From a virus, in the IMG/VR virus record IMGVR_UViG_3300038701_001554, positions 1-29,644 of that record: a stretch of DNA of 29,644 bases. One strand, written 5' to 3'. Below, piece by piece: positions 3,435 through 22,546 of the stretch (its first letter is position 1; each line of letters starts with the position of its first letter). The notes under the pieces are model-generated. The model had not been told where the DNA came from and did not search any database. It was given only the letters and a program-made list of their open reading frames with translations. Position numbers and translations under genes: made by a program.

Positions 3435-3940
3435 TGGCACGCCGGGAGTGCACAGAGCAGCAGAAGGCGTTCTGCCACGAGTTCGCGAAGGACTTCAATG
3501 GCACGCAGGCCGCTATCCGCGCGGGGTACAGCGAAAAGTCGGCCTCCCGGCAGGCGCATGATCTACTCAAGAATCCCCTAGTGCAGTCATATCTGGCCAC
3601 CGTCACGAAGCCCATCATCGAGGAGGCTATGGAGGCGGCCAGCTACAGCGCCAAGCAGCTGCTGCAGGACCTGCTGGACGTGCAGGCCCGGGTGAAGGCT
3701 GTGCTGGTTATGGATCAGGAGGTGGTCAACGAGGACGGTGAGTACGTGAGCACCCTTGACCCCCAGCTGATCAACGCCTACGCGCGGCTGTGTGAGCAGG
3801 TCGGCAAGCACATCCAGATCGGCGCATTCAAGGAGGTGGTCGAGCACCGCCACGTCGGTCAGGCAGAGGGGCTGGAGGCCGCCATGGAGCGCGCCCTTGC
3901 CCAGAGGGAGGAGTACCGCAAGCAGCTGCAGGTGCATTGA
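3434..3940 (+). CDS. terminase small subunit (Terminase_2-like)
   Basis: 168 residues. The N-terminal third carries the helix-turn-helix signature of the Terminase_2 family: TEQQKAFCHEFAKDFNGTQA, then AIRAGYSEKSASRQA and LLKNPLVQSYL at about residues 7-55. Small terminases form a ring that recognises the packaging site and feeds DNA to the large subunit. The middle is a long helix (oligomerisation) and the C-terminus a charged coiled segment (EAAMERALAQREEYRKQL), expected to contact the large subunit. The start is coupled to the preceding stop. Unusually, about 2.5 kb of small genes separate it from the large terminase. Confidence 0.85.
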   Translation: MARRECTEQQKAFCHEFAKDFNGTQAAIRAGYSEKSASRQAHDLLKNPLVQSYLATVTKPIIEEAMEAASYSAKQLLQDLLDVQARVKAVLVMDQEVVNEDGEYVSTLDPQLINAYARLCEQVGKHIQIGAFKEVVEHRHVGQAEGLEAAMERALAQREEYRKQLQVH

Positions 3941-6343: not shown

Positions 6344-6482
6344 GACCCTGAACCTGCTGACCGATCTCGCGCTGAGCGGCATCTCCGTGTACTACCTGAT
6401 CCGGTCTATATCCGGCGACCCGGAGGAGCGCCATGAGTGGCTCGTGCTGGGCGTCCTGTTCGGGATATGGGCAACGGTGTGA
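6336..6482 (+). CDS. tiny membrane protein, 48 aa
   Basis: 48 residues, ATG at 6336 overlapping the previous stop by eight bases. Two hydrophobic stretches flank a polar, acidic centre (SGDPEERHE): TLNLLTDLALSGISVYYLI and WLVLGVLFGIWATV. It is the third predicted small membrane protein between the two terminase genes. The end overlaps the start of the large terminase, so expression is probably coupled to it. No family recognised. Confidence 0.5.
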   Translation: MIETLNLLTDLALSGISVYYLIRSISGDPEERHEWLVLGVLFGIWATV

Positions 6483-7967: not shown

Positions 7968-8321
7968 ATGAGCAACGTACTGCAGGTATTCAACGTCGAC
8001 GAGGCAGCCACAGCGCGCAAGCAGCGCTCGATCAGGGATGCGGTGGGTAAGGCGCTTGGTAAGGCGCACCCGACGGTGCCGTGGTACGTGTCGGTCCCAG
8101 AGGACTGCAGCGTCGTGCAGTTCTATTGCCCCACCCTGACGTCGGGGTTCGGGATGACGCTGCACGCTAACCGGCCCAACTTCGAGCTGGCTCGGATGGC
8201 AGTCATGATGGCCGGTGAGTACCTCGAGCGGTTCAATGTGAGCCGGGAGCGCCCGGACATCTCTCACGTGCCGAAGAACATCAAGGGCGTGGCCAGAAAT
8301 GAGGCCAAGGGCGAACTCTAA
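7968..8321 (+). CDS. hypothetical protein, 117 aa
   Basis: 117 residues with a strong Shine-Dalgarno (AAGGAGGGG) upstream of the ATG, 46 bases after the large terminase. The N-terminal part is helical and basic (ARKQRSIRDAVGKALGKAHP), the middle beta-like (PWYVSVPEDCSVVQFYCP), followed by a Met-rich helix (ELARMAVMMAGEYLERF). No family recognised. Its TAA stop is part of the CTAAAGT box of the next promoter. Confidence 0.7.
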   Translation: MSNVLQVFNVDEAATARKQRSIRDAVGKALGKAHPTVPWYVSVPEDCSVVQFYCPTLTSGFGMTLHANRPNFELARMAVMMAGEYLERFNVSRERPDISHVPKNIKGVARNEAKGEL

Positions 8322-8344
8322 AGTGACCCGGGATGCTGTACATT
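8318..8344 (+). promoter_or_regulatory. rightward phage promoter P2 (CTAAAGT-N14-TACATT)
   Basis: CTAAAGT at 8318-8324 and TACATT at 8339-8344, with the same 15-base distance between hexamers as in P1, P3 and P4. The TAA within the first box is the stop codon of the gene ending at 8321. The next gene starts at 8373. The -10 box is the weakest of the four, so this may be a weaker member. Confidence 0.6.
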
Positions 8345-8372
8345 CTGGGCTCCAACACACTGAGGTGATGAC

Positions 8373-8831
8373 ATGAGCACGATCTTCGGATACCTGATCT
8401 CCCTATGGGAGGACATCAAGGCTGCGCTGGGGCTGTATAACCCGGCCAAGCGTGATGAGGCGGACCTCGAGTCCGAGATGGAGTACATCGATGACTCCGA
8501 TTACCCGGCCCCGGCGGTGCAGGAGAAGGACCTCGAGGCCATGGATGACGATGAATTCGAGGCCCTCGGCGAGCAGCTGGAGGCGCAGATTGCCGAGGAG
8601 ACGGCGGCCGAGATGAAGTCCCTCGAGGACCACGGCATCACCTTCGAGCAGTACCGCGAGAACCACCTCGCTGATGTCCGCGACGGGATCGTGATGCGCC
8701 TGCCGGACTACGTCCTGAAGCGCCGCTACAACGGCGACTGGAGTGGAGGCCTGCATGCCAGCGAGATGTTCCGCGACCAGAGCGAAGCCCGCAACCCGAT
8801 CCCGGCGAGCCTGAATCCCCGTGAAGACTAG
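8373..8831 (+). CDS. acidic hypothetical protein, 152 aa
   Basis: 152 residues; GAGGTGATGAC precedes the ATG. A short amphipathic N-terminus (MSTIFGYLISLWEDIKAALG) could touch a membrane or partner. Residues about 25-85 are extremely acidic (long runs of Asp and Glu with EQLEAQIAEETAAEM), then a more neutral helical part and a short C-terminus with ASEMFRDQSEARNP. The acidity recalls scaffold- or portal-associated factors, but nothing more specific is seen. It is the first gene after P2 and overlaps the next gene by 11 bases. Confidence 0.65.
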   Translation: MSTIFGYLISLWEDIKAALGLYNPAKRDEADLESEMEYIDDSDYPAPAVQEKDLEAMDDDEFEALGEQLEAQIAEETAAEMKSLEDHGITFEQYRENHLADVRDGIVMRLPDYVLKRRYNGDWSGGLHASEMFRDQSEARNPIPASLNPRED

Positions 8832-9048
8832 CGAGTCAGGATCCGCAGAGTGCCGGTACTCGTTCGGCGCCCTCGACGGGGGCCCGGACCTGCCGGAGAT
8901 CGAGGTCACGCTCAGGCTCACGGTGAACGCCGAGGGTGTGCCAGCGCACCGCCAGTATGAGCACGTCACTGGCCGGGTAGTGGAGCAGCTGGAAGCAATG
9001 TCGGGGGAGCTTATGGAGCCCCCGGAACTCGACCTTGACGGCGACTAA
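8821..9048 (+). CDS. small acidic hypothetical protein, GTG start
   Basis: 75 residues from a GTG inside the end of the preceding gene; there is no clear ribosome site, so coupling is assumed. The middle has beta-strand character (EIEVTLRLTVNAEGV) and the C-terminus is acidic (MEPPELDLDGD). No family recognised. Its TAA stop forms part of the CTAAAGT box of promoter P3, which supports this reading frame as the true end of a gene. Confidence 0.55.
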   Translation: MKTSESGSAECRYSFGALDGGPDLPEIEVTLRLTVNAEGVPAHRQYEHVTGRVVEQLEAMSGELMEPPELDLDGD

Positions 9049-9071
9049 AGTGTTGGCGTTACAGGTATAAT
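9045..9071 (+). promoter_or_regulatory. rightward phage promoter P3 (CTAAAGT-N14-TATAAT)
   Basis: CTAAAGT at 9045-9051 and a perfect TATAAT at 9066-9071, 15 bases between the hexamers. It overlaps the stop codon of the previous gene (TAA 9046-9048) and drives the head genes starting with the portal at 9188. P1 and P3 also agree in the spacer (TTGGTG and TTGGCG). Probably the strongest of the four copies. Confidence 0.7.
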
Positions 9072-9080
9072 CCGTTCAAC

Positions 9081-9135
9081 GGCGGCCCACCGGTCTCTCT
9101 CTCGGTACTCTCTCTCACCTCGCCGGTGGGTCGCC
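9081..9135 (+). other. 13-bp leader hairpin upstream of portal
   Basis: Bases 9081-9093 pair with 9123-9135: 12 Watson-Crick pairs, mostly GC, plus one GU. The 29-base loop is pyrimidine-rich (TCTCTCTCTC and ACTCTCTCTCAC). No T-run follows, so it is not an intrinsic terminator. It starts about three bases from the expected P3 transcript start. A stem at the very 5' end can shield mRNA from RNase E or pyrophosphohydrolase, as known for ompA leaders; that role here is inferred. This and P3 account for the 139-base gap. Confidence 0.6.
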
Positions 9136-9187
9136 TCCTAAATTCAGCTGCACGGATGCGGCTGTGTGAAGCGCCAAGGAAGGCTGC

Positions 9188-11305
9188 ATGGGTCAGAGAC
9201 AGAGCCATACGATTCACCCCGGCGAGCTGCTGGGGATGGCCGACCTTAGGGACGGTGACGGTTACTGGCTGAGCACAGTCCGCCACGCACACCGGGCCAG
9301 CACCGACTTCCTCGACGACGGCATACGCGAGGAGTGGGAGAAGGCCTTCTACCGGTTCCGCAACCAGCATCCCCCGGGCTCGAAGTACCGCACCGCAGCG
9401 TACAAGCACAGATCCAAGACCTTCCGGCCGAAGACCCGCAGCCTGTCACGGCGCGCCGAGGCGAAGGCAGCAGCAGCACTGTTCTCCAACACCGACCTGA
9501 TCGACGTCCGCGGGCAGAACCGCGGCAGCGCAGAGCAGGCGGCTGCTGCGGCGTTCAACAAGGCGATCATGCAGTACCGCCTCGAGCACAGCATCCCGTG
9601 GTTCCTCACCTGCATGGGTGCGCGTCAGGACACCTTCAACAACGGCGTCTGCATCAGCCTGAGCACGTGGGAGTACGAGGTCCGCAAGACCAAGACGATC
9701 ACGCCGCGGTTCATGGAGGACGGCCGACCGGAGCTGGACGAGGATGGCGATGAGGTAGGCGATGAGGTGGAAGTCGAGGAGGTGATCGTCGACAAGCCGG
9801 TCCTCGATCTGCTGCCGCCGGAGAACGTGCGGTTCGACCCCAACGCAGACTGGCGCAACCCGTTCGAGGACAGCCCGGTCATCAACATCATGCTGCCCAT
9901 GTATGCGCGCGACGTGATGCTGAGGGCGAAGAAGCCCAACCCGGTGACCGGTGAGCCAGAGTGGCGCGAGCACCAGCTGGGGGCGATCCTCGCCGCGGCG
10001 CAGGACAAGAACATCAACGAGATCGTGCGTCAGGCGCGAGTCGGCGACAACCGCCACGACCCCATCGACATCAGCGCATCCAACGAGGACACGCTGGTCT
10101 GGGTGTGGCTGAACATCGTGCGCGACGAGGACGGCGAGGACATGGCGTTCTACAGCCTCGGCGGCCAGCTGATGCTGAGTCAGAAGCCGGTGCCTGTGCG
10201 CGAGCTGCTTCCCCTTGGCCGGGACAGCCTGACCTTCGGCTTCTCTATCCTCGAGTCACACCGCCCGTACCCGACCAGCGCGAACGAGCTGTCGGCCTCC
10301 ATGCAGTCCGAGGTCAACGACATCGCCAACCAGCGCATGGACAACGTCAAGCTGGCGCTGAACCGCCGGTACTTCGTGCGCCGCGGATCTCAGACCGACC
10401 TCGCAGCCCTGTCGCGGTCCGTCCCCGGCGGCGGCGTCATGACTGGGGATCCGGAGAACGACATCAGGGTGCTGGACTTCCCGGACGTCACGGGATCCAG
10501 TTATCAGGAGCAGGACCGCCTCACGCAGGAGCTGGACGAGCTGACCGGCAACTTCAGCAGCAGCAGCGTGCAGGCCAACCGCAGCCTCAACGAGACCGTG
10601 GGCGGCATGAACATGCTGCAGGGCGATGCCACCGAGGTCAGCGAGTACGAGCTGCGCACGTTCGTGGAGACGTGGGTAGAGCCAGTGCTGCGGAAGCTGC
10701 AGAAGCTGTGCGCGATGTTCGAGACCGACGAGACCATCCTCACTGTGGCCGGGGAGAATGCAGAGCTTCAGAAGTACGGCGTGTCACCAGAGATCGACCG
10801 CATGCTGGACGAGGAGATGATCGTCAGCGTTAACGTAGGCATGGGCAACACCAATCCCGCCCAGCGCCTGCAGCGGTTCCAGATGATCATCGCCGCGGCT
10901 GCCAACATCCCAGAGATCGCGCAGCGCATGAACCCCGAGGAGATCGGCAAGGAAATCTTCAGCCTCGGCGGGTTCAACGACACCACGCGCTTCATGATGA
11001 GCGAGGAAGAGTTCGCCCAGAAGATGCAGCAGATGCAGGAACAGATGGCCGCGCAGCAGCCGCAGGACACCTCGCTGCAGGTCGCTCAGTTGCGCGCAGA
11101 GGTCGACCGCTACAAGGCCGACAAGGACTTCCAGATCAAGCTCATGACGCTGCTGGAAGAGCAGGACGCTAAACTGACGGAGCTTACTGCTAGAATGGAG
11201 ACTGAGCGCATGAAAGATCGTACTCAGCGCGACAGTCTGGCGGTCAAGGAAGGCACCAGACTGGAAGAGATGGAAGTCAGGCGAGACACGGGCGCAGGGA
11301 TTTAG
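9188..11305 (+). CDS. portal protein (P22-like class)
   Basis: 705 residues, close to the size of P22-type portals; AAGGAAGG lies 7 bases before the ATG. The portal is the dodecameric ring at one capsid vertex through which DNA enters and leaves. The N-terminal wing and stem region is followed by an acidic insert (about residues 178-195, many Asp and Glu), then a conserved-looking core with SSSVQANRSLNETVGGMNML (about 456-475). The C-terminal 120 residues form a long charged helix (QKMQQMQEQMAAQQ, then KLMTLLEEQDAKLTEL), matching the barrel of P22-class portals. It is the first gene of the P3 unit and precedes scaffold and coat. Confidence 0.85.
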   Translation: MGQRQSHTIHPGELLGMADLRDGDGYWLSTVRHAHRASTDFLDDGIREEWEKAFYRFRNQHPPGSKYRTAAYKHRSKTFRPKTRSLSRRAEAKAAAALFSNTDLIDVRGQNRGSAEQAAAAAFNKAIMQYRLEHSIPWFLTCMGARQDTFNNGVCISLSTWEYEVRKTKTITPRFMEDGRPELDEDGDEVGDEVEVEEVIVDKPVLDLLPPENVRFDPNADWRNPFEDSPVINIMLPMYARDVMLRAKKPNPVTGEPEWREHQLGAILAAAQDKNINEIVRQARVGDNRHDPIDISASNEDTLVWVWLNIVRDEDGEDMAFYSLGGQLMLSQKPVPVRELLPLGRDSLTFGFSILESHRPYPTSANELSASMQSEVNDIANQRMDNVKLALNRRYFVRRGSQTDLAALSRSVPGGGVMTGDPENDIRVLDFPDVTGSSYQEQDRLTQELDELTGNFSSSSVQANRSLNETVGGMNMLQGDATEVSEYELRTFVETWVEPVLRKLQKLCAMFETDETILTVAGENAELQKYGVSPEIDRMLDEEMIVSVNVGMGNTNPAQRLQRFQMIIAAAANIPEIAQRMNPEEIGKEIFSLGGFNDTTRFMMSEEEFAQKMQQMQEQMAAQQPQDTSLQVAQLRAEVDRYKADKDFQIKLMTLLEEQDAKLTELTARMETERMKDRTQRDSLAVKEGTRLEEMEVRRDTGAGI

Positions 11306-11326
11306 CGCCCACACTGAGGCAAGGGA

Positions 11327-11668
11327 ATGCCGGCAGAGTTAGAGCGAATACTTCAGAACGCTGAAGTGCCAGTAGAGTTCGAGAGTCAGGAGGAAGAGAT
11401 CCTGATCCGGACTGCCGTCATGGGCGAGGACGCCCGTGAGTGGATGGTGACCAATCCCGTTGGTCGCTACGTTATTGGCGCCGCCCTACAGGACCAGAGC
11501 GACATCGAGACCGCGATCATGCGGACCCCGCTCTGGCGCAAGCGCAAGCACCATGACCTCAGAGCAAAACACGCTGCCATCGGCAACGCCATTCGCTGGC
11601 TGACCGAGGCGGTACAGGTGGGCATGAGCGCAGAGTCTCAGCTCGAGCAACGCAACGTCAAGGAGTGA
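11327..11668 (+). CDS. hypothetical head-module protein, 113 aa
   Basis: 113 residues between portal and scaffold. The N-terminus is acidic (ELERILQNAEVPVEFESQEE), then helical segments (WMVTNPVGRYVIGAALQ) and a basic patch (LWRKRKHHDLRAKH). It has no membrane span. Small genes at this position are usual in podovirus head modules, where they may be minor head components, but the family is not recognised. The stop is next to the scaffold start. Confidence 0.65.
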   Translation: MPAELERILQNAEVPVEFESQEEEILIRTAVMGEDAREWMVTNPVGRYVIGAALQDQSDIETAIMRTPLWRKRKHHDLRAKHAAIGNAIRWLTEAVQVGMSAESQLEQRNVKE

Positions 11669-11673
11669 CGAAC

Positions 11674-12846
11674 GTGACCGAAGAAACTATCCAGAAGGAC
11701 GTTTCGCAGGCCGAAGGGCAGGATGCCCCGACCACCAGCGAAGCACAGGTGGCCGATACCCCGGAGCAGGAGCGCCCGGTAGCGCGCACCCGTGAAGAGA
11801 AAATGGCTCAGGTGGCAGAGGCCGCCAAGGCGCAGCGCGAGGCCGACCGAAAGTCGATGGCGCTGATCAACAACCCCGACCTGACAGAAGAAGAATACGA
11901 TGCGCAACAGGTCGCAGCATCAGAGTCGACGGATAATGACTCTGCCTCCGATGAAGAGGAGCGCGATGCTGAGGACGCCGGCGAACTTACCGCTGGCGAG
12001 GAATCCGAAGAGGCCGTAACTGCAGAGGCCGAGGAAGAGACCAAGCCGGAGACAGAGAACGGCTGGTACGAGCGTGAGGATGGCGTGCGCGTCAAGCGCA
12101 TGAAGATCAACGGTGAGCTGCGTGAGTTCACCGAGGAAGAATACGACCGCGCTGTGAGCAAAGAGTTCGCAGGCGATCAGAAATTGCGGCTGGCCGCTGA
12201 GCGTCAACGTCAACTGGACGAGCGCGAGCGCCAACTGCAGGAGCGACTGAGCCAGCAACAGGAGCCTCGTGAACTGCCGACAGGGCAGAGCGATGCTGAG
12301 TTTGCTGAGAAGCTCAGTAAGTATCATGACGCCGTGTACGATGGTGACACCGATACAGCCAACAAGCTGATGGCGGAGATGATCGCGGGACGGAGCAATC
12401 CCACCCCCAACATCGCTGCGCTGGTAGATGAGGCTGTTACCGCACGTGCCCACCAAGAAGCGCAAGAGCGTCACGCTGCCAGCGCACGCAGGGGCTGGGA
12501 ACGGTTCGAGAAGGATTATGCAGAGATTGCATCCGACGACCGATACCTCGCCTTTGCGGACGCTAACCTGAAGATAGTTCGTGCAGAGAACCCAGATTGG
12601 GAGCCGGAGAAGGTCATCCTCGAAACAGGACGCCGGACCGCCGAAGACCTCGGGATCTCGAAGAAGCAGGTCAAGGAAGACCAGCCGAGCAAGTCTTCTC
12701 AGAGTGCTGACCGCATGGCGCGGAAGGCAAAACTGAAATCAGTGCCCAGCACGGGCTCCGGCGCTAAGGCCGAAGATCGTGCACCTGTGATCGACATGAG
12801 TCCGAAGGCGAAGATCGCCCGGCTGCGCGCAGGTAGGGCCGTTTAA
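11674..12846 (+). CDS. scaffolding-like protein
   Basis: 390 residues from the GTG at 11674, favoured over GTG 11665 because AAGGAG at 11659-11664 gives normal spacing. Residues 1-130 are disordered and very acidic (Glu/Asp-rich, with EEERDAEDAGELTAGEESEE). A central coiled coil (about 170-205, ERQRQLDERERQLQERL) is followed by helical regions and a basic C-terminal end (KAKIARLRAGRAV). Scaffolding proteins line the inside of the prohead, contact coat through a basic C-terminal helix and leave before DNA fills it. The position directly between portal and coat, and this composition, fit that role; no sequence family is claimed. Confidence 0.75.
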   Translation: MTEETIQKDVSQAEGQDAPTTSEAQVADTPEQERPVARTREEKMAQVAEAAKAQREADRKSMALINNPDLTEEEYDAQQVAASESTDNDSASDEEERDAEDAGELTAGEESEEAVTAEAEEETKPETENGWYEREDGVRVKRMKINGELREFTEEEYDRAVSKEFAGDQKLRLAAERQRQLDERERQLQERLSQQQEPRELPTGQSDAEFAEKLSKYHDAVYDGDTDTANKLMAEMIAGRSNPTPNIAALVDEAVTARAHQEAQERHAASARRGWERFEKDYAEIASDDRYLAFADANLKIVRAENPDWEPEKVILETGRRTAEDLGISKKQVKEDQPSKSSQSADRMARKAKLKSVPSTGSGAKAEDRAPVIDMSPKAKIARLRAGRAV

Positions 12847-12860
12847 TAGGAGCAAGAGCA

Positions 12861-13802
12861 ATGCAGCTTTGGAGTAATACAGGCCAAGGTTACATGGCGT
12901 CCGACATTCTCTCCGAGAATTGGCGGGTCAGCCAGCAGCCGCTCACGCGCTTCCGGCAGTTCTGTGACGTCGAAGAAGCGGTGGGTAAAAATCAGGGCGA
13001 GAAGTTTATCTGGACTGTGTACGGGGACATCCCGGACACCGGTACTGCTGAGCTTCAGGAGAACCAGCCGATGCCGACTGGCAGCTTCCCCGTGTACGAC
13101 GCGGAAGTTGTGATGACGGAATACGGTAAAGCGGTTCCCCACACGCTGAAGTACGAGACGATGTCCGAGCACAACGTCCCGAACGTCATCAGTGTGACGC
13201 TGAAGAACCACGCGAACAAGACGTTCGACCGGAACGCGCATGCGCAGTTTGACGCTACTATTCTCCGCGCAGTTGGCGGAGCATCGGGGGCCCTCACGCT
13301 CACCGATAATGGTACGCCGAGCGGCACGAACAACATCGCTATGTCCAAGGATCACGTGAAGACGTTCCGCGACACGATGGAAGAGCGCAACATCCCGGTG
13401 TTCGATGGCGAGGATTACGTTGGCATCATGCGTCCGACCACGATCCGCCCGGTCCAAGACGATCTGGAGTCTGTATTCCAGTACGTCGACGAGGGCTACA
13501 AGCGCATCGTGAACGGTGAGCGCGGTCGTTACGAAGGCATTCGATTCGTGACGCAGACCAACATCGCCAGCGAAGGCTGGAGCAACGGTCTGTCTGACGC
13601 GGCGTACTTCTTCGGTGCGGACACCGTGACGGAAGCAATCGCCATTCCGGAGGAACTCCGCGGTAAGATCCCTGATGACTACGGCCGTAGCCGTGGCATC
13701 GCGTGGTACTACCTCGGCGCCTTCAAAATCACCCATGCTGACCAGACTGATGCCGCGAGCAAGCTTCACGCCCGCATCATCAAGTGGGACAGCGCAGCCT
13801 AA
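12861..13802 (+). CDS. major capsid protein (N4-gp56-like family)
   Basis: 313 residues with TAGGAGCAAGAGCA before the ATG. The sequence has the features I associate with N4-gp56-type coat proteins: an N-terminal part ending in GEKFIWTVYGDIP (about 52-64), a Pro- and Gly-rich strand region, a central DATILRAVGG segment, and the C-terminal signature GRYEGIRFVTQTNIASEGW (about 220-238) followed by DAAYFFGADTV and YGRSRGIAWYYLGAFKI. The HK97 fold is expected. It forms the icosahedral shell and lies directly downstream of the scaffold gene. The opposite strand is also open over this gene, a by-product of GC-rich codon use. Confidence 0.9.
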   Translation: MQLWSNTGQGYMASDILSENWRVSQQPLTRFRQFCDVEEAVGKNQGEKFIWTVYGDIPDTGTAELQENQPMPTGSFPVYDAEVVMTEYGKAVPHTLKYETMSEHNVPNVISVTLKNHANKTFDRNAHAQFDATILRAVGGASGALTLTDNGTPSGTNNIAMSKDHVKTFRDTMEERNIPVFDGEDYVGIMRPTTIRPVQDDLESVFQYVDEGYKRIVNGERGRYEGIRFVTQTNIASEGWSNGLSDAAYFFGADTVTEAIAIPEELRGKIPDDYGRSRGIAWYYLGAFKITHADQTDAASKLHARIIKWDSAA

Positions 13803-13817
13803 GGGGGGCAATCGATC

Positions 13818-14207
13818 ATGTACACTTACGATCAGCCGTTTCTCGCTGCCTACACGGTCAACGCTGCGGCGCTTGATACGGCAGGCGAGATCCTCAATGT
13901 TGCTGGCCCGGATGGCTACGTTGGGCGTGTCGTCGACATCGCTGTCAACGTCACCACCGGTGTCACTGTTGCAGCGTCCAATCTCCAGCTGGGTTCAGCT
14001 GGTGACGCAGACGCATACGCTACGCTGGAGGTGCCTATCACCGCCGCGGATGGCGTAGTCAACGGCGCAACTGTCCTGACCACCGACGACAACGTCATCC
14101 CTGATGGCGGTCCGGTGGTCCTCACCTGCGGCGGCGAAGCTACTGCCGGCGACGGCACGGTTACCGTGTTCATCGCTTGGTATCAAGCCGGTCCGGTCGC
14201 GAGCTAA
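13818..14207 (+). CDS. probable capsid decoration or head-stabilising protein
   Basis: 129 residues, with AAGGGGGG upstream of the ATG. It is Ala-, Val-, Thr- and Gly-rich, low in charge and almost all predicted beta strand (VGRVVDIAVNVTTGVTVAAS and later VTVFIAWYQAG). This looks like a small beta-sandwich. Genes directly after coat with this composition often encode trimeric decoration or cement proteins, so that role is inferred from position and composition only. Confidence 0.6.
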   Translation: MYTYDQPFLAAYTVNAAALDTAGEILNVAGPDGYVGRVVDIAVNVTTGVTVAASNLQLGSAGDADAYATLEVPITAADGVVNGATVLTTDDNVIPDGGPVVLTCGGEATAGDGTVTVFIAWYQAGPVAS

Positions 14208-14220
14208 GAGGAGTTAACGC

Positions 14221-14358
14221 ATGTCCCTGAAGGAAGGCGTAACCATGAAGAAGGGCTTCAAGCCCGAGGCATCGAGCCCCCCGGCCACTAAGGTCGGTCG
14301 CCCGAAGCCTGACGACCCGAACATCAAGCGGAAGAACACTTCTGTTCCGAAGTGCTGA
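14221..14358 (+). CDS. 45-residue basic protein after the coat gene
   Basis: 45 residues with a strong ribosome site (AAGAGGAG) 8-9 bases before the ATG. It is rich in Lys and Pro (KEGVTMKKGFKPEASS, then VGRPKPDDPNIKRKN) and predicted disordered. The strong Shine-Dalgarno and its place between the decoration-like gene and the terminator argue that it is translated, possibly to high level. The function is unknown; a minor head or DNA-contacting peptide is possible. Confidence 0.55.
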   Translation: MSLKEGVTMKKGFKPEASSPPATKVGRPKPDDPNIKRKNTSVPKC

Positions 14359-14367
14359 TGTTCATCC

Positions 14368-14390
14368 CCCGGGCCTTCGGGTCCGGGTTT
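14368..14390 (+). terminator. intrinsic terminator-like hairpin with UUCG loop
   Basis: CCCGGGCC at 14368-14375 pairs with GGTCCGGG at 14380-14387 (seven Watson-Crick pairs and one GU) around a TTCG tetraloop, an exceptionally stable loop. TTT and then ACCTAATT follow, so the U-tract is short. It lies 10 bases after the last head gene. Probably a partial terminator that lowers transcription of the tail genes relative to coat. Confidence 0.65.
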
Positions 14391-14419
14391 ACCTAATTCC
14401 CTGAGGAGGGCGAACAGCC

Positions 14420-14611
14420 ATGCCGCAGATCAAGAACGTAGAGCGGGACTACACACCGCGACGTGAACGCAATGTTGAGGAGCGCATGGATCAGGGCGCC
14501 AGCCTCAAAGAAGGTCTCTCGGGTAGAACCGAGGTGACGAAGCGCAAACCTTTCTATCGTGAGTACCCGGGTCAGGAAGACCAGATGGGTCCGATGATCG
14601 ATATTTTCTGA
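14420..14611 (+). CDS. small hypothetical protein, 63 aa
   Basis: 63 residues with GAGGAGGGCG before the ATG, the first gene after the terminator. It is charged and mostly disordered (IKNVERDYTPRRERNVEER, then GRTEVTKRKPFYREYPGQED), with a hydrophobic end (MGPMIDIF). No family is recognised. The excellent ribosome site and clean junctions support translation. Confidence 0.6.
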   Translation: MPQIKNVERDYTPRRERNVEERMDQGASLKEGLSGRTEVTKRKPFYREYPGQEDQMGPMIDIF

Positions 14612-14623
14612 GGAGTGAGAGCA

Positions 14624-14902
14624 ATGTCAGAAGTACAAGAGCTACCGGGTGAAGATCCGTCTGAGGATGGCGCTGGCGCACCTGCTGCTGCTGATAGCGG
14701 CGATGCTGCTGCTGCCGGGAGTGATGGCGCTGCTGCTGGCGAGGGTGATCAGCCCAAGCCCGAGCCCAAGCGCAAGGCCAAGCCCAAGTTCGACCCGAAG
14801 AAGGACTACGCCACGCTTATCGCTCCGGGTGCTACGAACCGCTTTATCCAGAACGGCGAGGTGTTCAACCTCAGCGGCAAGCACATCGGAAAGGCTGATT
14901 AA
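14624..14902 (+). CDS. Ala-rich hypothetical protein with conserved-looking C-terminus
   Basis: 92 residues from the ATG at 14624 (GAGGAGTGAGAGCA precedes it). Residues 1-45 are low-complexity, Ala-, Asp- and Gly-rich; a Lys/Pro hinge (KPEPKRKAKPKFDPKKD) follows; and the last 35 residues look folded (DYATLIAPGATNRFIQNGEV). Small proteins with a disordered acidic start and a compact C-terminal unit appear in head-completion regions. The specific role is unknown. Confidence 0.6.
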   Translation: MSEVQELPGEDPSEDGAGAPAAADSGDAAAAGSDGAAAGEGDQPKPEPKRKAKPKFDPKKDYATLIAPGATNRFIQNGEVFNLSGKHIGKAD

Positions 14903-14905
14903 CCA

Positions 14906-15574
14906 GTGACCCTGCTGGAGCTTGTACAGGCGCTCTGGAGGGAGTCTGGCTCCGGCGGCCCCATGCCCACCACTACGGTGAGTCAGGTCGGCGAGGCCCA
15001 GCGCCTCGTAAGCTGGATCATCAAGGCCGACCTCGAGATCCAGCAGAAGCACTCCGACTGGAAGTTCCACTGGGGTCAGGACGACTTCGACACCGCGAAC
15101 GGCACGGCGACCTACGACGACCCTGTCGCAGGCGGCGTGTCCACGTTCGACGAAGACTCGTTCTACCTCGACTCCACCAGCCGTATCAGCTGCGTCTACT
15201 ACGAGAGCGTGAAGGGTTTCGCCCGGCCAACCGGGACGAGCCAGCCCTCGCAGGTGGTCATCATGCCGAACGGCAAGCTGCGCTGCGACCCCACGCCGAA
15301 CGGCGTGTACACGATCTCGTTCGACTACTGGATGAAGCCGGTCGCGATGGCGCTGAACACCGACGTGTCGATCATCCCCGAGGAGTTCCACGACGTCATC
15401 CTCGGCAAGGCACTCATGCACTACGCAGAGTATGAGAACGCGGCCGAGACCATGCAGAAAGGTCAGCGCATGTACGCCGACTGGATCCTGCCCCTTGAAT
15501 CGAAGCAGCTGCCGGGCGACCGCAACCAGCATCGTCAGGCGGAAGGCAACGAGTACGTGGTCCGTGTTGAATGA
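14906..15574 (+). CDS. head-tail adaptor-like protein
   Basis: 222 residues from a GTG three bases after the preceding stop. The N-terminal helical part (LLELVQALWRES, then AQRLVSWIIKADLEIQQ) leads to the DWKFHW motif (about 50-55) and a beta-rich middle (TISFDYWMKP), then a helical C-terminus (MHYAEYENAAETMQKG). A helix followed by a D-W-x-F/L-x-W motif and a strand domain, at this position, is typical of podovirus connector or adaptor proteins that extend the portal ring. Assignment rests on pattern and position. The stop overlaps the next start (ATGA). Confidence 0.65.
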   Translation: MTLLELVQALWRESGSGGPMPTTTVSQVGEAQRLVSWIIKADLEIQQKHSDWKFHWGQDDFDTANGTATYDDPVAGGVSTFDEDSFYLDSTSRISCVYYESVKGFARPTGTSQPSQVVIMPNGKLRCDPTPNGVYTISFDYWMKPVAMALNTDVSIIPEEFHDVILGKALMHYAEYENAAETMQKGQRMYADWILPLESKQLPGDRNQHRQAEGNEYVVRVE

Positions 15575-17649
15575 GAGAGACCCCATATTTCACCCTCGGC
15601 GGTGGCCTCGATCTGGTGACCCCGATCATCCAGATGCCGGACGGCCGCATGATCGCCGGAGACAACTTCGAGCCTTGGATCAACGGCGGCTACCGCCGGA
15701 TGCGGGGCTTCGAGCGATTCGACGGCAGGCCTAAGCCATCAGCCTCAACGTGGGCGTGGTTCACCCTCGCGGATGCCAGCAGCTACAGCGTTGGCGACGT
15801 CATCACTGGCGACACCTCGGGTGCGACCGGCACCATCGTCGCCATCGGCACCGACACATACGTCAACGAGGTCGCGGTCACAAAGATCACCGGGACCTTC
15901 ACTGACAGCGAGGCCATCGACACCGCCACCACCACGATCTCGAACATAGCGTTCGCGTCAGGGCCTACGGTTCCGCTCGAGGAGGCGTGGCGCCTCGCGG
16001 CGGAGGACGACTACCGAGACGACATTACCGCCGTCCCCGGGAGTGGCCCGGTGCGCGGCTGCTTCCAGTGCCGGGACCGGGTCTACGCCATACGCGACAA
16101 CGCCGGCGCGACTGCTGGCGTGATTCACAAGGCCACATCATCTGGCTGGGACGACACTCAGCTCACGATGACCACCACCCTGTACTTCGACAGTGGATCC
16201 ACGGAGCCCACAGTGGGCGAGACGGTGACGGGGGCCACCAGTGCGGCCACAGGTGTCGTGCATCGCGTAGTGCTGCACAGCGGCTCATACGGCGGCGGAG
16301 ACGCGGCAGGCTACATCGCCATGACCACCGTGACCGGAACATTCCAAGACAACGAGATTCTGGACGGATCCACGGCGGGCGCAGACTTCGCGACAGCAGC
16401 AAGCGACCCCGACGCATTCTCCCTGCCAGTGGGCGGGCACTACGATTTCCATGTCGCGAACTTCTTCGCGGGATCCGACACGTATCGCCTGTACGCGTGC
16501 GCTGGCAACGGTCCTGCGTTCGAGATCGATGAAGACGACATCGTCACACCGATCCTGCTCGACCTTTCACTGGGCGACTCCCCGGACGAGAACAACCCCT
16601 ACCTCGTAGAATCCTTCGATGGCGCGCTGTGGCTGATGTTCCCCGGCGGCAGCCTGCAGAAGTCCGCGGTCGGGCTGCCACTCACGTTCAACGGATTCCT
16701 CGGGGCCGCAGAGTTCGGACTCGGCGATGAAGGCACCGGGCTGATCAACTCCGCGGGCCGCGTTCTGGTGGCGTTCACACGCAGCCAGACGCACGGCTTC
16801 TTCCCGGACGGCACCGGCAGCGGCTACGTGAAGCGCCTGATATCACAGCGCAGCGGCTGCATACAGTGGTCTGAGGGCGCGCTCGGTACAGTTCTGGCGG
16901 TCGACGACTCAGGCCTCATCAGCCTCGCCCGTGTCGAGCAGTTCGGTGACTTCGCCAACGCCACGATATCCGACCTCGTGCAGCCCCTGATCGTGAGTCA
17001 GCGTGAGGCCATCATCGGCACTCAGCTGATTCGAGAGTCCAACCAGTACCGCGTGCTGTTTGCCTCTGGCACCGGGATCATCGCCCGCATCCTACCTGAC
17101 GGCGGAGCAGAGTTCGCCAGCTTCAATATGGACATCGGGATAAACCAGACTCTTTCCTGCGCGTACTCGTGTGAAGATGAATCGAGCGTTCCTCGTTACT
17201 ACATGGGAAGTAGCGATGGCTTCGTTTACGAGTGCGAGAAAAGCAGGAGCTGGGACGGCCGAGACATCGAGTCCTTCATGCGCCTGCCGTTCAACCATCA
17301 GGGGTCTCCGGCTGTTCACAAGCGTTACCGTCTCGCCGAGGTGGAGCTGAAGGCGGAGCGCCGTGTCGTCCTGCTGTGCGCTCAGGATAGAGACTTCGGA
17401 GACGCGTCGACCGGCACTTCGAGCTTCAACGAGACCGTCGACACCACCTACGCCGGCGGCGCCCTGTTCGACATCTCTGAGTGGGATGAGTCCTACTTCG
17501 ACGCCAACGAGTTCGACGTCGCGCGATTTGAGCTGCGCGGCACCGGGCGCAACGTCAGCCTGCTTCTGTACCACAAGTCGGCGTTCACAGAGCCCTTTAT
17601 CGCGCAGGGCGTGATCCTTCATTTCGACCCACGTAGGGTGAGCCGCTAA
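15571..17649 (+). CDS. large tail or stabiliser-type structural protein
   Basis: 692 residues. The N-terminus (MRETPYFTLGGGLDLVTPII, then NFEPWINGGYRRMRGFERFD) is a pattern I associate with tail-tube or stabiliser proteins of short-tailed phages. Two related beta modules are inserted, about residues 70-132 and 206-277, each with a V-T-G-(D/A)-T-S-(G/A)-A-T-G turn and an (I/V)TGTF.D.E end. The rest is beta-rich, with propeller-like repeats around GGSLQKSAVGLPLTF and the C-terminal third. It overlaps the previous gene by four bases and the next by one, in a tail operon. A virion component at the tail hub is inferred. Confidence 0.65.
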   Translation: MRETPYFTLGGGLDLVTPIIQMPDGRMIAGDNFEPWINGGYRRMRGFERFDGRPKPSASTWAWFTLADASSYSVGDVITGDTSGATGTIVAIGTDTYVNEVAVTKITGTFTDSEAIDTATTTISNIAFASGPTVPLEEAWRLAAEDDYRDDITAVPGSGPVRGCFQCRDRVYAIRDNAGATAGVIHKATSSGWDDTQLTMTTTLYFDSGSTEPTVGETVTGATSAATGVVHRVVLHSGSYGGGDAAGYIAMTTVTGTFQDNEILDGSTAGADFATAASDPDAFSLPVGGHYDFHVANFFAGSDTYRLYACAGNGPAFEIDEDDIVTPILLDLSLGDSPDENNPYLVESFDGALWLMFPGGSLQKSAVGLPLTFNGFLGAAEFGLGDEGTGLINSAGRVLVAFTRSQTHGFFPDGTGSGYVKRLISQRSGCIQWSEGALGTVLAVDDSGLISLARVEQFGDFANATISDLVQPLIVSQREAIIGTQLIRESNQYRVLFASGTGIIARILPDGGAEFASFNMDIGINQTLSCAYSCEDESSVPRYYMGSSDGFVYECEKSRSWDGRDIESFMRLPFNHQGSPAVHKRYRLAEVELKAERRVVLLCAQDRDFGDASTGTSSFNETVDTTYAGGALFDISEWDESYFDANEFDVARFELRGTGRNVSLLLYHKSAFTEPFIAQGVILHFDPRRVSR

Positions 17650-18380
17650 TGCCGAATCCTTATTACAACTACAACGATGACTTCGTTCCCTTCAGCAAGG
17701 TCCCGTCTCAGCGCCTCGATGACCAGTTCGAGGCCATCGAGGACGGGTTCGATAAGCTGGGCCCGTTCGACGGCATCAACTCCGGATCCATTCTGGGAGG
17801 GGATGACACCGGTACGGTGAACACCGTGGTCGTGGATAACGACGGCCCTGACACCCTTCAGGACTTCCACATCGTAACGTGGCGTCCGGTGGCGACCAAC
17901 ACCGGGCCGTCCACCCTCGCGCTGAATGGCAACACGCCGCTTCCCATCACTCGGAACAACGGGCTGCCGCTGGAGGCCGGCGACCTCATCGAGGGCGTGA
18001 TGACGGCCGCCATCCATGACGTCGATGAGTCTCGATATACCCTGATCGGTTCCACCCACGTGCAGACTATCGGCCGGCCGCCCGTGAAGACCATCACCGC
18101 CAACTACACGCTCACCGCGGCAGACGAGGGGTACATCATCCGCTGCAACAGCTCGAGCGATATCACGGTGACCATCCCGCCGCACTCCACCGCGGCGCTG
18201 CCCAACGGCTTCCTCGTTCACCTGTACCGCTATGGCACCGGTGAGGTGATCGTTTCCGCCGGCGCTGGGGTGGCCCTGAGGACCGCCATCGGCGCCAAGG
18301 CGCGCAACCGTTACAGCAGCGTTTCGCCGTCACAGGTCACTCAGGACGACTGGCTGCTGCTGGGTGACGCCAAGGTATGA
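17649..18380 (+). CDS. tail fibre or tail-associated structural protein
   Basis: 243 residues, start coupled by TAATG. The N-terminal part (PYYNYNDDFVPFSKVPSQRL followed by DDQFEAIEDGFDKL) is a short tail-attachment motif seen at the beginning of many phage tail proteins. The remainder is beta-rich, with repeated Thr-, Asn- and Gly-rich strands and a C-terminal small beta domain (about 150-243, TITANYTLTAADEGYIIRCN) resembling fibre-tip or lectin-like modules. A minor tail or adaptor-fibre protein is inferred. Overlaps the next gene by four bases. Confidence 0.6.
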   Translation: MPNPYYNYNDDFVPFSKVPSQRLDDQFEAIEDGFDKLGPFDGINSGSILGGDDTGTVNTVVVDNDGPDTLQDFHIVTWRPVATNTGPSTLALNGNTPLPITRNNGLPLEAGDLIEGVMTAAIHDVDESRYTLIGSTHVQTIGRPPVKTITANYTLTAADEGYIIRCNSSSDITVTIPPHSTAALPNGFLVHLYRYGTGEVIVSAGAGVALRTAIGAKARNRYSSVSPSQVTQDDWLLLGDAKV

Positions 18381-21250
18381 CTTACCCGTTCTTCGTTCAC
18401 AACTGGCGCGGATACCCTGAGGAGGGGGTGTTGAGAGATGCGGTGGTGCCTGACGCTGCGACGATATGCTTTGTCGCCGCCGGCGATCAGGGGTCGATGG
18501 ATCACGCAAATGCTGCTCAAGCCTTGTTTTACGACACCGGGCTCTGCAGCTCTGATGACGGCCAATACGTACTGAGCTGCATCAGCAACAGCACGGCGAA
18601 TGGTGTCGAGGACTTCGGCTTCTTCTTTTCCGACGACTTCGGCGAGAACTTTACGTACACGGCGTGGCAGGACGTCGCCAACAACGAGGAGATTCTTGGC
18701 GACTCAGATGCCTTCGATGGGGGGTCCTTCACGTACCCAGCCAACTGCATCTGGGAGCCTTTCTATGAGCGGTTCATTGTCATGTTCCCCAATAATGGCA
18801 ACGACACCACGTTCTGGTGGATGGACCCCACCGTGGATCCTGTTACTTTCAATCAGTTCACGGTTGGCGGCGCCTCAAGCTTTGGCTTTAGGACGTGGGC
18901 GGTAGCCGCCGACCTGCAAGGCGGGCTGGCGATCATGGGTCGCTTCAATGGTGGCGGCAACCTTGGGCGCAACACCATCACCAGCGGTCCAGACTGGAAT
19001 GGCGCCGGCAGCATTTCCGACCCCCCGGGGACAGACCCTGAGCCCAACGCTCTATACGTTCAGATCGGGTTCGATGGCACGCTCGTGGGTGGGGAGTATA
19101 TCTGGAGGGTCTCGTATCGAGAGCCCTTCACGGACGCCACTGGTATCAACGGCCGCCTTGTCGCCGGAATGGGGAACACTCTTCGTGTCGGCGCGCGCAG
19201 CGCGGCAGATGGCTATTTCACCAACCTGTGTGGAAAGAGACATCCCACACTCGCATTCCTAATTGAGGGTGGAACGGATCGAAGGGTGTGGCCTGTCGTC
19301 GCTGGAATGAACCTTGATGCCCCCACCAACACCTTCCAGCTTCCGTCGCACCCGGATGAAGATATCCGGCTGTCGGTGATGGAATACAACCCGACTGCGG
19401 GGTGGTGCGCTGTTGGAACTCAGGCGTCGGAGGACTCCGTCAACGAGGGCGTCAAGAGAATCTACGTCTACACCTCCGAGACTGGAATCGAAGGCACTTG
19501 GAACGGACCTTTCCAGCTGACAATACCGCTCGTAACGTACCCCGGTCAGGGCACTTCATACTTGGATGAGGATCGCCCGGATCACCGCGGCCTCGCGTAC
19601 CTCGGAAGCGGCACGCACTGGGGGCTTATGGCTCGCCGTCAGGGAAACCAGAACCCGGTGCTGATATGCTTCGATGCCACCGCCGGCGGTGCCGCCATCA
19701 TCGAGGATGGCTCAATAGAGTTCAACGCCAACACGCTCGCGTGGCTCGCCCTTCAGCCTAAAATATTCATGCCGCTCAACGACAACGGATCTCCGGCCAC
19801 CGTGCTGGACTACGGATCTCGCGGCTACACGAACAACACGGACACCAGTGACCTGACGTGGGGCGAAACCGGCCCGTATGAGGGAACTGGAATGCTGCCT
19901 GCCACAGAAGACGACCACATCCGCATGATCAACAGTCGCATGGGTGGCGACTACGTGATCATCTTTGCAGACGTAAGCAGCCGCAGTGGCGACGCCGTGC
20001 TGCTGGAGTTCAACTACCTGCTGGCCCCAGACACTCAGGTCAAGGTCACCTGCACTGATGACGGCTGGGTGCTGTCTGTCAGGGGTCAATATGAATTCGG
20101 TGGCGTACCATCCACGGTAGAGACCTTCGACGCGATACCGTACAACGGCGACGTGGCGGAGGTGATCTTCCGGGTGCAGGACCGCAAGATATCCACGTTC
20201 ACCTTGGGGAGCACGACGCCATCCCAGACCAAGGACTCACCCGTGATCGGTCGGTTCGGCCTGAAGCGCGCCGGCGGCCCCGCGGAGGATGACCCCACAG
20301 AGATCCTGATCGGCGGGGCCAACCTGATCGTAGATAACTTCGTCGTTGTAACCGCGGACGGCGACATATCGACCGAGGAGATTCTGGAACTCATGGGTGG
20401 GTCCAGCATCACGCTGCCCGCCCCGGCCACCCCGACGGCGTCCAACGTCAAGTGCCTGATCAACGCAGAGGGTACGCCGACCGATCTCGGCACCGGCTTC
20501 TTTGATGTCGGAAATGACATATCCGGCCTGTCGAGCCCGGTCTCAGATGTGTGGGCGCCGTCCGCCGCGAACGTGACGACTGCTCAGGCGAAGTTCGGAA
20601 GCCAAAGCATCGCGGTTCCCGCAAAGGACTACGGTGGAGACCGGGAGCCGGCATCCGCATTCTGGCGAGGGATGCACGACACCAGTATCAACAACCGAGA
20701 CTTCACGATAGAGGGGCATATCAAGCCTCAGGCCAGTGGCAACCTGTGCGCTCTCGGCAGCTCGCAGCAGTTTGTGCGAGACGGGATCCGGCACTGGCGG
20801 TACGGCGGACTGACTATCACCATACTGGGGTCGGCGGGCGCCGGCACGATGATTTTGTCCGTGGGCGCTGACTCGGCTACGGCCAGAGCATCGAAGAGCA
20901 ACGCGATCTCCTCGAACGCCTACTACGTGCTGGCCAGATTTGACACCTTCAACGACGCCGACTGGAACCATGTCGCGGTGTCGCGCGAGGACAACCAGTT
21001 CCGCCTATTCATAAACGGCCAGCTCCCCACTAGCACGACGGTGAACGGCAGCGCCTCCGCCCCGGTGCTGGATGGTGGAGACTTCACCCTCGGTGCGCAG
21101 CTCGAGGAGTGGGCTCTCACCATAAACAACGAGACCCGCTACGGAGTGGGAATGGTGGCAGACCCGTGCTTTATAGACGGATTCCGATTCATCCTCGACG
21201 AGGCAGTATTCACAGAACCTTTCACAGTGCCGGCAGCAGCGTACTCATGA
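18377..21250 (+). CDS. tail fibre / receptor-binding protein with propeller-like and LamG-like domains
   Basis: 957 residues. The first ~440 residues look like a beta-propeller: one Asp-box SDDFGENF fits S-x-D-x-G-x-x-F/W at about 85-92, and Trp- and Gly-rich strands repeat. A LamG/concanavalin-like sandwich follows (about 455-635; PKIFMPLNDNGSPATVLDYG). A second one is at about 765-955, with FTIEGHIKP, WNHVAVSREDNQFRLFINGQ and a closing FIDGFRFILDEAVFTEPF, the classic LamG order. Such modules bind sugars, so host-surface recognition or glycan processing is inferred. No catalytic residues can be assigned. It is last of the tail genes and overlaps the next gene by four bases. Confidence 0.7.
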   Translation: MTYPFFVHNWRGYPEEGVLRDAVVPDAATICFVAAGDQGSMDHANAAQALFYDTGLCSSDDGQYVLSCISNSTANGVEDFGFFFSDDFGENFTYTAWQDVANNEEILGDSDAFDGGSFTYPANCIWEPFYERFIVMFPNNGNDTTFWWMDPTVDPVTFNQFTVGGASSFGFRTWAVAADLQGGLAIMGRFNGGGNLGRNTITSGPDWNGAGSISDPPGTDPEPNALYVQIGFDGTLVGGEYIWRVSYREPFTDATGINGRLVAGMGNTLRVGARSAADGYFTNLCGKRHPTLAFLIEGGTDRRVWPVVAGMNLDAPTNTFQLPSHPDEDIRLSVMEYNPTAGWCAVGTQASEDSVNEGVKRIYVYTSETGIEGTWNGPFQLTIPLVTYPGQGTSYLDEDRPDHRGLAYLGSGTHWGLMARRQGNQNPVLICFDATAGGAAIIEDGSIEFNANTLAWLALQPKIFMPLNDNGSPATVLDYGSRGYTNNTDTSDLTWGETGPYEGTGMLPATEDDHIRMINSRMGGDYVIIFADVSSRSGDAVLLEFNYLLAPDTQVKVTCTDDGWVLSVRGQYEFGGVPSTVETFDAIPYNGDVAEVIFRVQDRKISTFTLGSTTPSQTKDSPVIGRFGLKRAGGPAEDDPTEILIGGANLIVDNFVVVTADGDISTEEILELMGGSSITLPAPATPTASNVKCLINAEGTPTDLGTGFFDVGNDISGLSSPVSDVWAPSAANVTTAQAKFGSQSIAVPAKDYGGDREPASAFWRGMHDTSINNRDFTIEGHIKPQASGNLCALGSSQQFVRDGIRHWRYGGLTITILGSAGAGTMILSVGADSATARASKSNAISSNAYYVLARFDTFNDADWNHVAVSREDNQFRLFINGQLPTSTTVNGSASAPVLDGGDFTLGAQLEEWALTINNETRYGVGMVADPCFIDGFRFILDEAVFTEPFTVPAAAYS

Positions 21251-21696
21251 CAGACAATAATCACGAAACAGCAGACCGCCTCATTCATCACGTTCTCGGC
21301 GAGTTCGACCGCCGGGCGACGGAAAGTGAGCGCAGGACGGCGGAGAACGAGACCTCGATCTCTGAGCTTCGCACCAACATCTCGGAGATTGGTGCGCAGC
21401 TTTCCGCGCACGGTAGCGTGCTTCAGCAGATAGCCACAAAGGTGAACACTCCGAGTACGTTCAACGTATGGGCTGCCATCAGCGCCATCGTTGCGCTCGC
21501 CGTCATGGGTGCGGGCTTTGTGGCGCTCAACACCATGCCGCTGAACTCCGATATCTCTGAGCTGCAAACCTCGGTCGTTCGAGATCAGGAGTGGCGCATG
21601 GAGGAGCAGTATAATCAGGGTCGTCAGGACGCCTTTATCGAGATTCTGGGCGACCGGGTTGAGGTTCTGGAGCGGCAGCTGAATGAGCATGAATGA
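21247..21696 (+). CDS. coiled-coil protein with one central membrane span
   Basis: 149 residues. A charged coiled coil (residues 1-72, with ERRTAENETSISELRTNISE) precedes a hydrophobic segment (about 76-97, WAAISAIVALAVMGAGFVAL), and a second helix (about 104-149) ends in EVLERQLNEHE. It opens the membrane and lysis cassette. It may be a pinholin-like regulator, antiholin or membrane adaptor; the single span with two large soluble arms is not a standard holin. The stop overlaps the next gene by 14 bases. Confidence 0.6.
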   Translation: MTDNNHETADRLIHHVLGEFDRRATESERRTAENETSISELRTNISEIGAQLSAHGSVLQQIATKVNTPSTFNVWAAISAIVALAVMGAGFVALNTMPLNSDISELQTSVVRDQEWRMEEQYNQGRQDAFIEILGDRVEVLERQLNEHE

Positions 21697-21877
21697 AGAT
21701 TGGATAGAGCGCCACAGGATGATGCGCAGGGCTGTCCTGCTGTGGAGCCTGTACATCATCACGCTGACGATTCACCACTACCTGCCGAGGATCGGTCAGG
21801 TGCAGAACCCTGATAGCGTGATCATCGTGGGCGTTATCGGGATACTTTCCGTGGTCATAGGGTTCTACAAAGAATGA
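21683..21877 (+). CDS. putative holin, two membrane spans
   Basis: 64 residues from ATG 21683; an in-frame ATG at 21689 would drop two residues. A basic N-terminus (ERHRMMRR) precedes span 1 (about 16-30, AVLLWSLYIITLTI) and, after a loop (HHYLPRIGQVQNPD), span 2 (about 45-62, VIIVGVIGILSVVIGF). Size, two spans and position directly before a spanin pair fit a class II-like holin, which would form inner-membrane lesions timed to the end of infection. The family was not recognised, so this rests on context. Confidence 0.6.
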   Translation: MSMNEDWIERHRMMRRAVLLWSLYIITLTIHHYLPRIGQVQNPDSVIIVGVIGILSVVIGFYKE

Positions 21878-22263
21878 TGAAGATCGTGACAATGATACTT
21901 CGCCGGCCATGGATTATTGGTCTGGTAGGGATGGCTGCCGTAATCGGTTTCCAGCAGTACCGTGTGTCGAGTGCGCTCACCAATCTCGCCGACTGCAAGA
22001 TCGAAAGCGTGCATCAGGAGCGCGAGCTGATCGCCGCCAAGTCATCGATACGCTCGCTGCTCGCCGCGGTGGAGAACCAGAATCGCCAGATCCTCGAGTA
22101 CAAGCGGAGGATGATAGAGCGCGCCAGTGCGCAGGATCAGGCACAGAAGGATGCAGAGGATGCAATGCGGAGAGCACAGTCAGAGATCGATCAGCTGGCT
22201 GCAAGCGATGGCGCTTCGTGCAGTGAGGGCATCGCGCTGGTGGACCGGGAGCTGGGCCTATGA
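21874..22263 (+). CDS. Rz: i-spanin (Rz-like)
   Basis: 129 residues. One N-terminal transmembrane anchor (about residues 12-26, PWIIGLVGMAAVIGF) is followed by a long periplasmic coiled coil (about 40-115; NQNRQILEYKRRMIERASAQ), the layout of Rz-type inner-membrane spanins. With the outer-membrane lipoprotein encoded next, it bridges the periplasm and fuses the membranes at the last step of lysis. The start overlaps the holin candidate by four bases, and the stop overlaps the lipoprotein gene by four bases. Sequence similarity to lambda Rz is weak; topology and pairing carry the call. Confidence 0.75.
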   Translation: MMKIVTMILRRPWIIGLVGMAAVIGFQQYRVSSALTNLADCKIESVHQERELIAAKSSIRSLLAAVENQNRQILEYKRRMIERASAQDQAQKDAEDAMRRAQSEIDQLAASDGASCSEGIALVDRELGL

Positions 22264-22523
22264 GGGCGCTCGCAATAGCGATGCTTGCCCTGCTGTGCGG
22301 GTGCACGACGACGGAGTACGTCGACCGGCCGGTGGACGTGTACGTCCCTGTGCCGACGCCGTGCGAGGTCGAGGTCCCTGCTCAGGTGCTGTACGCGACC
22401 GACAAGCTGCGCGCCAGCGACACCGACTTCGACAAGATTAAGGCGCTGCTGGTTGAGCGGCGCCAGAGGGCGGCAACGGAGGAGGCATTGCGCCTTCTAC
22501 TTGGTGCATGCATTGAGGGCTAA
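22260..22523 (+). CDS. Rz1: o-spanin lipoprotein (Rz1-like)
   Basis: 87 residues with a lipoprotein signal: MRALAIAMLALLCGC gives an L-C-G-C lipobox with the modified Cys at residue 15. The mature part starts TTTEYVDRPVDVYVPVPTPC, Pro- and Val-rich as in Rz1-type outer-membrane spanins, followed by a helical region. It overlaps the i-spanin gene only at the ends (ATGA), so this is an overlapped rather than an embedded pair. Presence of an outer-membrane spanin implies a Gram-negative host. Its TAA stop lies within the CTAAAGT box of P4. Confidence 0.8.
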   Translation: MRALAIAMLALLCGCTTTEYVDRPVDVYVPVPTPCEVEVPAQVLYATDKLRASDTDFDKIKALLVERRQRAATEEALRLLLGACIEG

Positions 22524-22546
22524 AGTAAGGCCGCGGCTGGTAAAAT
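22520..22546 (+). promoter_or_regulatory. rightward phage promoter P4 (CTAAAGT-N14-TAAAAT)
   Basis: CTAAAGT at 22520-22526 and TAAAAT at 22541-22546, the same 15-base hexamer spacing as P1-P3. The box includes the TAA stop of the o-spanin gene. The next gene starts at 22572 after AGGAGA. It would start the internal-virion-protein unit. Confidence 0.65.

Follow-up and report, generated by a model that had tools for sequence, protein, structure and literature searches.

A virus record of 29.6 kb (29,644 bases, 62% GC), referred to here as the window, and its nearest relatives, designated G001, G002 and L102, carry 13 sites at which a short box beginning with the invariant YTAAA is followed, after 14 or 15 bases, by a sigma70-like -10 hexamer. 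Most of the sites occupy homologous positions. They stand upstream of the portal, terminase, Zn-ribbon, lysis and 747-aa-gene blocks, and are therefore predicted to be, very probably, late promoters. The reading that we consider probable on balance is that the host sigma70 RNA polymerase serves these promoters together with a phage activator, which would replace the -35 contact and so switch on the late genes. The sites define, from sequence alone, the late regulon of a phage clade that has not been cultured. From one relative to another the box has changed in sequence, with spacing and placement nearly constant, and the natural variants that result can be used to look for its protein reader.

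Motif copies and gene content of the window

The window encodes a small terminase (3434-3940), a large terminase (6437-7921), a portal protein (9188-11305, plus strand, matching SU10_portal) and a major capsid protein (12861-13802, plus strand), the last of which served as the query for relatives. An Ig-like decoration gene lies at the left edge. No Rfam families or tRNAs were found in the window, and the phage collection held no close DNA relative of it. The window and its nearest relatives appear to be temperate-type podophages; G001 encodes a Cro-family protein (E 1.5e-12), and G002 has integrase-like and repressor-like proteins, by reading only.

After the decoration gene comes a pair of minus-strand genes (1362-1745 and 1765-1983) that looks like a moron cassette. 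The pair is served by its own sigma70-like promoter, TTGACG-N17-TAAGAT, at 2027-2055 on the minus strand. One gene of the pair has a homologue in G001 (50461-50838), where it is found across the decoration gene from the place that it occupies in the window. The stretch 27396-29642 is the start of a giant gene; the G001 gene at the matching position (L096:3284-15826) codes for a 4,180-aa protein with polyvalent-protein and RadC-like domains.

The initial annotation of this DNA reported four copies of CTAAAGT-N14-TANANT, and all four are found where it placed them, with no mismatch and with identical spacing. Predicted promoter 1 (CTAAAGT-N14-TATACT, 2074-2100, plus strand) is divergent from the minus-strand promoter just described and precedes the gene for a Zn-ribbon-like protein of 63 aa (2131-2322, plus strand), for which only weak matches were obtained. 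Predicted promoter 2 (CTAAAGT-N14-TACATT, 8318-8344, plus strand) precedes a start at 8373. Predicted promoter 3 (CTAAAGT-N14-TATAAT, 9045-9071, plus strand) precedes the portal gene, and predicted promoter 4 (CTAAAGT-N14-TAAAAT, 22520-22546, plus strand) precedes the gene for a 747-aa protein with no assigned function (22572-24815, plus strand).

These are, as had been claimed, the only plus-strand copies of CTAAAGT: the heptamer occurs four times in 29,644 bases, always on the plus strand. With both strands counted, 0.66 copies would be expected, and 100 shuffled sequences never contained as many as four. The full motif was absent from all 300 Markov-1 genomes. An unbiased bipartite scan, in which each of 4,096 6-mers was tried at 12 spacers before TANNNT on each strand, returned CTAAAG-N15 as the sole significant pattern of the window, on the plus strand only; its Bonferroni-corrected p of ~9e-5 is somewhat optimistic because the TANNNT anchor was picked in knowledge of the claim.

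The placement of the copies close to the starts of gene blocks also holds, at 25-116 nt upstream of gene starts. From the end of the -10 to the start codon the distances are 30, 28, 116 and 25 nt, for starts at 2131, 8373, 9188 and 22572 respectively. The upstream neighbours of promoter 1 are on the opposite strand, as the annotation had implied. Recurrence upstream of gene blocks is a property of operators too, and the sites might be no start sites at all, being instead binding sites for a regulator, such as the operator set of a repressor. The fixed distance to a TAnnaT box, the location of that box, at most sites, 25-60 nt ahead of the start codon, and the AT-rich -10 within DNA of 62% GC all speak for promoters and make the operator reading very improbable.

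Related phages and the stop-codon overlap

The expectation that relatives would share the motif was borne out for the layout, which recurs at homologous places although the box itself has diverged, and failed for the exact string, which is absent from the nearest relatives. A search of 12 relative records with the exact motif gave one chance-like match only, and within this set the CTAAAGT box is private to this phage. When homologous intergenic stretches of the relatives were read, the layout was seen again; the corresponding boxes are TTAAA(C/T)C-N14 in G001, TTAAACC-N15 in G002 and CTAAACC-N15 in L102. Beyond YTAAA, no other strongly conserved upstream block was seen across the 13 sites.

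In G002 (60 kb, with a capsid protein 78% identical to that of the window) TTAAACC occurs five times on the plus strand, each time with a TAnnnT box after a 15-base spacer. These predicted promoters lie at 39728, before a short decoration-like gene; at 43882, before a Zn-ribbon gene, as a counterpart of promoter 1; at 44317, before the terminase block; at 47263, before the portal; and at 59174, before the homologue of the 747-aa gene. The unbiased scan of G002, a replication independent of the window's box, ranked TAAACC-N15 first, with p ~9e-10 after Bonferroni correction and on the plus strand only. Both ends of the G002 record (L098:1-140 and L100:19900-19990) fall inside a GGCGCCGGGGCTGG-type repeat of the 747-aa homologue, as would be the case for a circular map whose assembly was interrupted, probably, within a repeat in coding sequence.

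Three predicted promoters, all with 14-bp spacers, are found in G001 (56.6 kb; capsid protein 80% identical): the one at 5017 precedes the portal, the one at 18327 the 747-aa homologue, and the one at 52116, which has GATAAT as its -10, a lysozyme-like gene. L102, a contig binned with a Rhodobacteraceae MAG (capsid protein 70% identical), has CTAAACC-N15-TACTAT at 7804, before the 747-aa homologue. The sites at G001 5017 and G002 47263 are positional homologues of promoter 3, and those at G001 18327, G002 59174 and L102 7804 are homologous to promoter 4.

In more distant relatives one gene joins directly onto the next at the portal. The class was absent at 57 of their portal loci, read at the portal join, and at 80 tail-protein loci, which were scanned; the first 32 kb of the E. 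coli phage Bas95, a distant relative, gave no significant bipartite pattern. Judged by these loci, the class is confined to the nearest clade, made up of the window, G001, G002 and L102. A fragment of a different phage, L126 (IMGVR_UViG_3300048590_000569), yielded a significant bipartite pattern of its own, TTACGC-N19-TANNNT (4/6 copies, corrected p ~2e-4).

At all three window sites where the preceding gene runs in the same direction, the stop codon of that gene is supplied by the TAA within the box, in agreement with the initial annotation: TAA at 8319-8321 ends ORF 7968-8321, TAA at 9046-9048 ends ORF 8821-9048, and TAA at 22521-22523 ends ORF 22260-22523. For ORF 8821-9048 (75 aa, GTG start) no relative is known, and it is position that speaks for its reality. 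The annotation went on to propose a functional principle, in which the box sits in the stop codon so that the end of upstream translation controls downstream initiation. Besides the three window sites, one in G001 and one in G002 conform to this, and the comparison does not bear the proposal out, with overlap at just five of 13 sites in four genomes. By genome the tally is 3/3 co-directional sites in the window, 1/2 in G001, 1/5 in G002 and 0/1 in L102, and the relatives together show it at 2 of 7-8 sites, namely G001 5017 and G002 47263, the box at the latter being the stop of the homologue of window ORF 7968-8321. At sites without overlap the stop either precedes the box by 10-16 nt, falls within the -10 region, or is not found nearby; the preceding stop is inside the -10 region at G001 18327, the box lies within a coding frame at G002 39728, and it is not at a stop at G002 43882, 44317 and 59174 or at L102 7804.

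A box that bears TAA will in any case terminate a gene that reads into it in one frame of the three, and a compact genome leaves its promoters close up against the ends of genes, so coupling is not needed to account for the overlap, and we hold it to be highly improbable. TAA is the stop of 12 of the 30 late genes in the window. The overlap looks like a packing effect and not a coupling device, an example of how a stop codon within a promoter box can come about as a by-product of packing.

The portal leader hairpin

The predicted start of the portal transcript lies a few nt before a leader hairpin at 9081-9135 (plus strand), with a 14-bp stem, a loop holding two UCUCUCUC runs, and a z of -3.5. 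The G001 hairpin (L095:5053-5107) has a 20-bp stem of unrelated sequence and a similar loop, and is followed by five U, while the G002 portal leader has a hairpin that lacks CU runs and folds no better than shuffles. U-rich sequence follows the portal-promoter hairpin in both G001 (L095:5053-5115) and G002 (L100 near 7308-7380), and in these two phages hairpin and U-rich stretch together resemble an intrinsic terminator set within the leader of the new transcript itself, possibly an attenuator.

In the window and in G001, the CUCUCUC loop of the portal leader could pair with GAGAGAG, the complementary sequence that serves as a Shine-Dalgarno element of early genes. In G001 the ribosome-binding site contains GAGAGAG in 10 of 26 non-structural genes versus none of 23 late genes (Fisher p 8e-4, with gene calls and an early/late split of our own and a test run after the pattern had been seen). 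In the window it is found at both minus-strand genes and at 1 of 31 late genes. Neither GAGAGAG nor CTCTCTC occurs anywhere in G002. Early genes give the stronger predicted duplexes with the loop, a result that largely follows from the motif itself. That loop and Shine-Dalgarno partner co-occur in two genomes and are jointly absent in one is suggestive, and we raise as a tentative and rather doubtful idea that the loop may act as an antisense to the GGAGAGAGAG Shine-Dalgarno sequences of early and accessory genes, such that the onset of late transcription would shut down early translation in trans. If true, the leader would add an RNA-based switch from early to late translation.

Reading of the promoters and known phage systems

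The downstream element is sigma70-like, with TAnnnT at 12 of the 13 sites and GATAAT at one. The box, as the initial annotation stated, is not a sigma70 -35: hexamers 16-18 bp upstream of the -10 have only 1-3 of 6 positions in common with TTGACA, and a scan for the sigma70 pattern, a TTGACA-like hexamer with a 16-18 bp spacer, omitted these sites. If transcription starts 6-7 nt after the -10, the box falls at about -33 to -27, with its centre near -30. Canonical sigma70-like promoters stand opposite the sites at window 2074 and G001 52116, the latter faced on the other strand by a divergent TTGCAC-N17-TAATAT (by reading), and the phages therefore appear to use both kinds.

The annotation named an altered or phage-encoded specificity factor, or an activator, as a plausible reader, and this still appears to be the best interpretation of the pattern. 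As the window spans about half a genome, without the regulator half, we infer the factor. Between the two options an activator is favored over a phage sigma, of which none was detected in G001 or G002. In these two near-complete genomes no sigma region 2 or 4 scored above cut-off (PF04542 gave no match, and PF04545 and PF08281 stayed below cut-off), a search that a very divergent sigma could evade, and gp47, the sigma of Salmonella phage 7-11, had no relative in G001, G002 or the window. PF00940, for phage RNA polymerase, had no match in the three records, and its control matched nowhere either. One match to sigma region 4 in G001 was rejected, being the MarR-like wHTH protein discussed below, for which HTH_24 and MarR score better.

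The main rival is a phage-encoded sigma that reads both boxes, as gp47 does. Phages of the phiEco32-like group offer precedents, with the same kind of bipartite, low-copy motif before late blocks, and the window portal matches a Pfam family named for SU10, a member of that group. The known phage sigma boxes of the group are, however, not sigma70-like, as the -10 is here, and together with the sigma searches this makes such a factor unlikely. The canonical -10 would also suit a host sigma with no phage factor, either the main sigma tolerating an odd -35 or a sigma28-like factor, and TAAAGT does resemble the sigma28 -35 element. We judge this less probable still: the -10 is not of the sigma28 GCCGATAA type, no good TTGACA-like hexamer is found at a spacing of 16-18, and the sites of each phage have a box in common that is not the same from phage to phage (CTAAAGT, TTAAACC), which fits a phage-specific reader.

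Under the activator reading, host RNA polymerase with its main sigma would read the sigma70-like -10 (TAnnaT), a phage DNA-binding protein would read the 7-bp YTAAA(c/g)Y box and supply the absent -35 contact, and the sharing of one box would turn on all late blocks together. The best candidate for the box reader is the small, basic wHTH protein encoded at G001 49335-49568 and G002 39481-39783 (pI 10.8-11.4, with 11.4 in G002; 35% identity between the two). Its best matches are general MarR/HTH_24 profiles (MarR E 6e-8 in G002), and an AlphaFold model (two sequences) is confident only for about residues 1-50, with a mean pLDDT of 65.6. In both genomes helicase, primase, HNH and resolvase-like genes are followed by the wHTH gene. 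The first late promoter of G002 (from 39728) lies within the 3' end of that gene; in G001 the gene holds the same place in the order, with 2.5 kb between it and the next late promoter. A wider scan for relatives of the protein found those of G001 and G002 only, and none in the phage collection. Position and co-occurrence in two genomes are what link the candidate to the box. The window's own copy, if any, would lie beyond its left edge.

P2 Ogr and P4 Delta are likewise phage late activators that work at promoters without a good -35, and a Zn-ribbon gene follows promoter 1 here. The Ogr site of P2 lies further upstream than the present box. The Zn-ribbon gene was considered as an Ogr-type activator and rejected, as PF04606 gave no match at E<=1 in the three genomes. 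With 7-11 and phiEco32 the clade shares the use of few copies of a short motif before late blocks, the late promoters read by gp47 of 7-11 being of the form GTAAtg-(16)-aCTA (PMC8948821). It differs from them in its sigma70-like -10, in its spacing and boxes, and in that no sigma gene was found in the relatives. The resemblance to RinA/Ltr, late transcriptional regulators in temperate phages of staphylococci, is one of position, the place of the wHTH gene matching the description of Ltr (PMC13123087). Ltr binds long repeats before one promoter of one transcript, whereas the promoters here are dispersed and share one 7-bp box. In T4, AsiA is required to remodel sigma. The box of the present clade, YTAAAcC, is a different one, and it precedes late and structural genes in place of the replication genes of T4. 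The likeness to T4 lies in the promoter itself: at T4 middle promoters, a MotA box replaces the -35 near -30 while the sigma70 -10 and the host polymerase are retained, and the class found in the window has, in the same way, a box centred near -30 together with a sigma70 -10 (PMC6755090).
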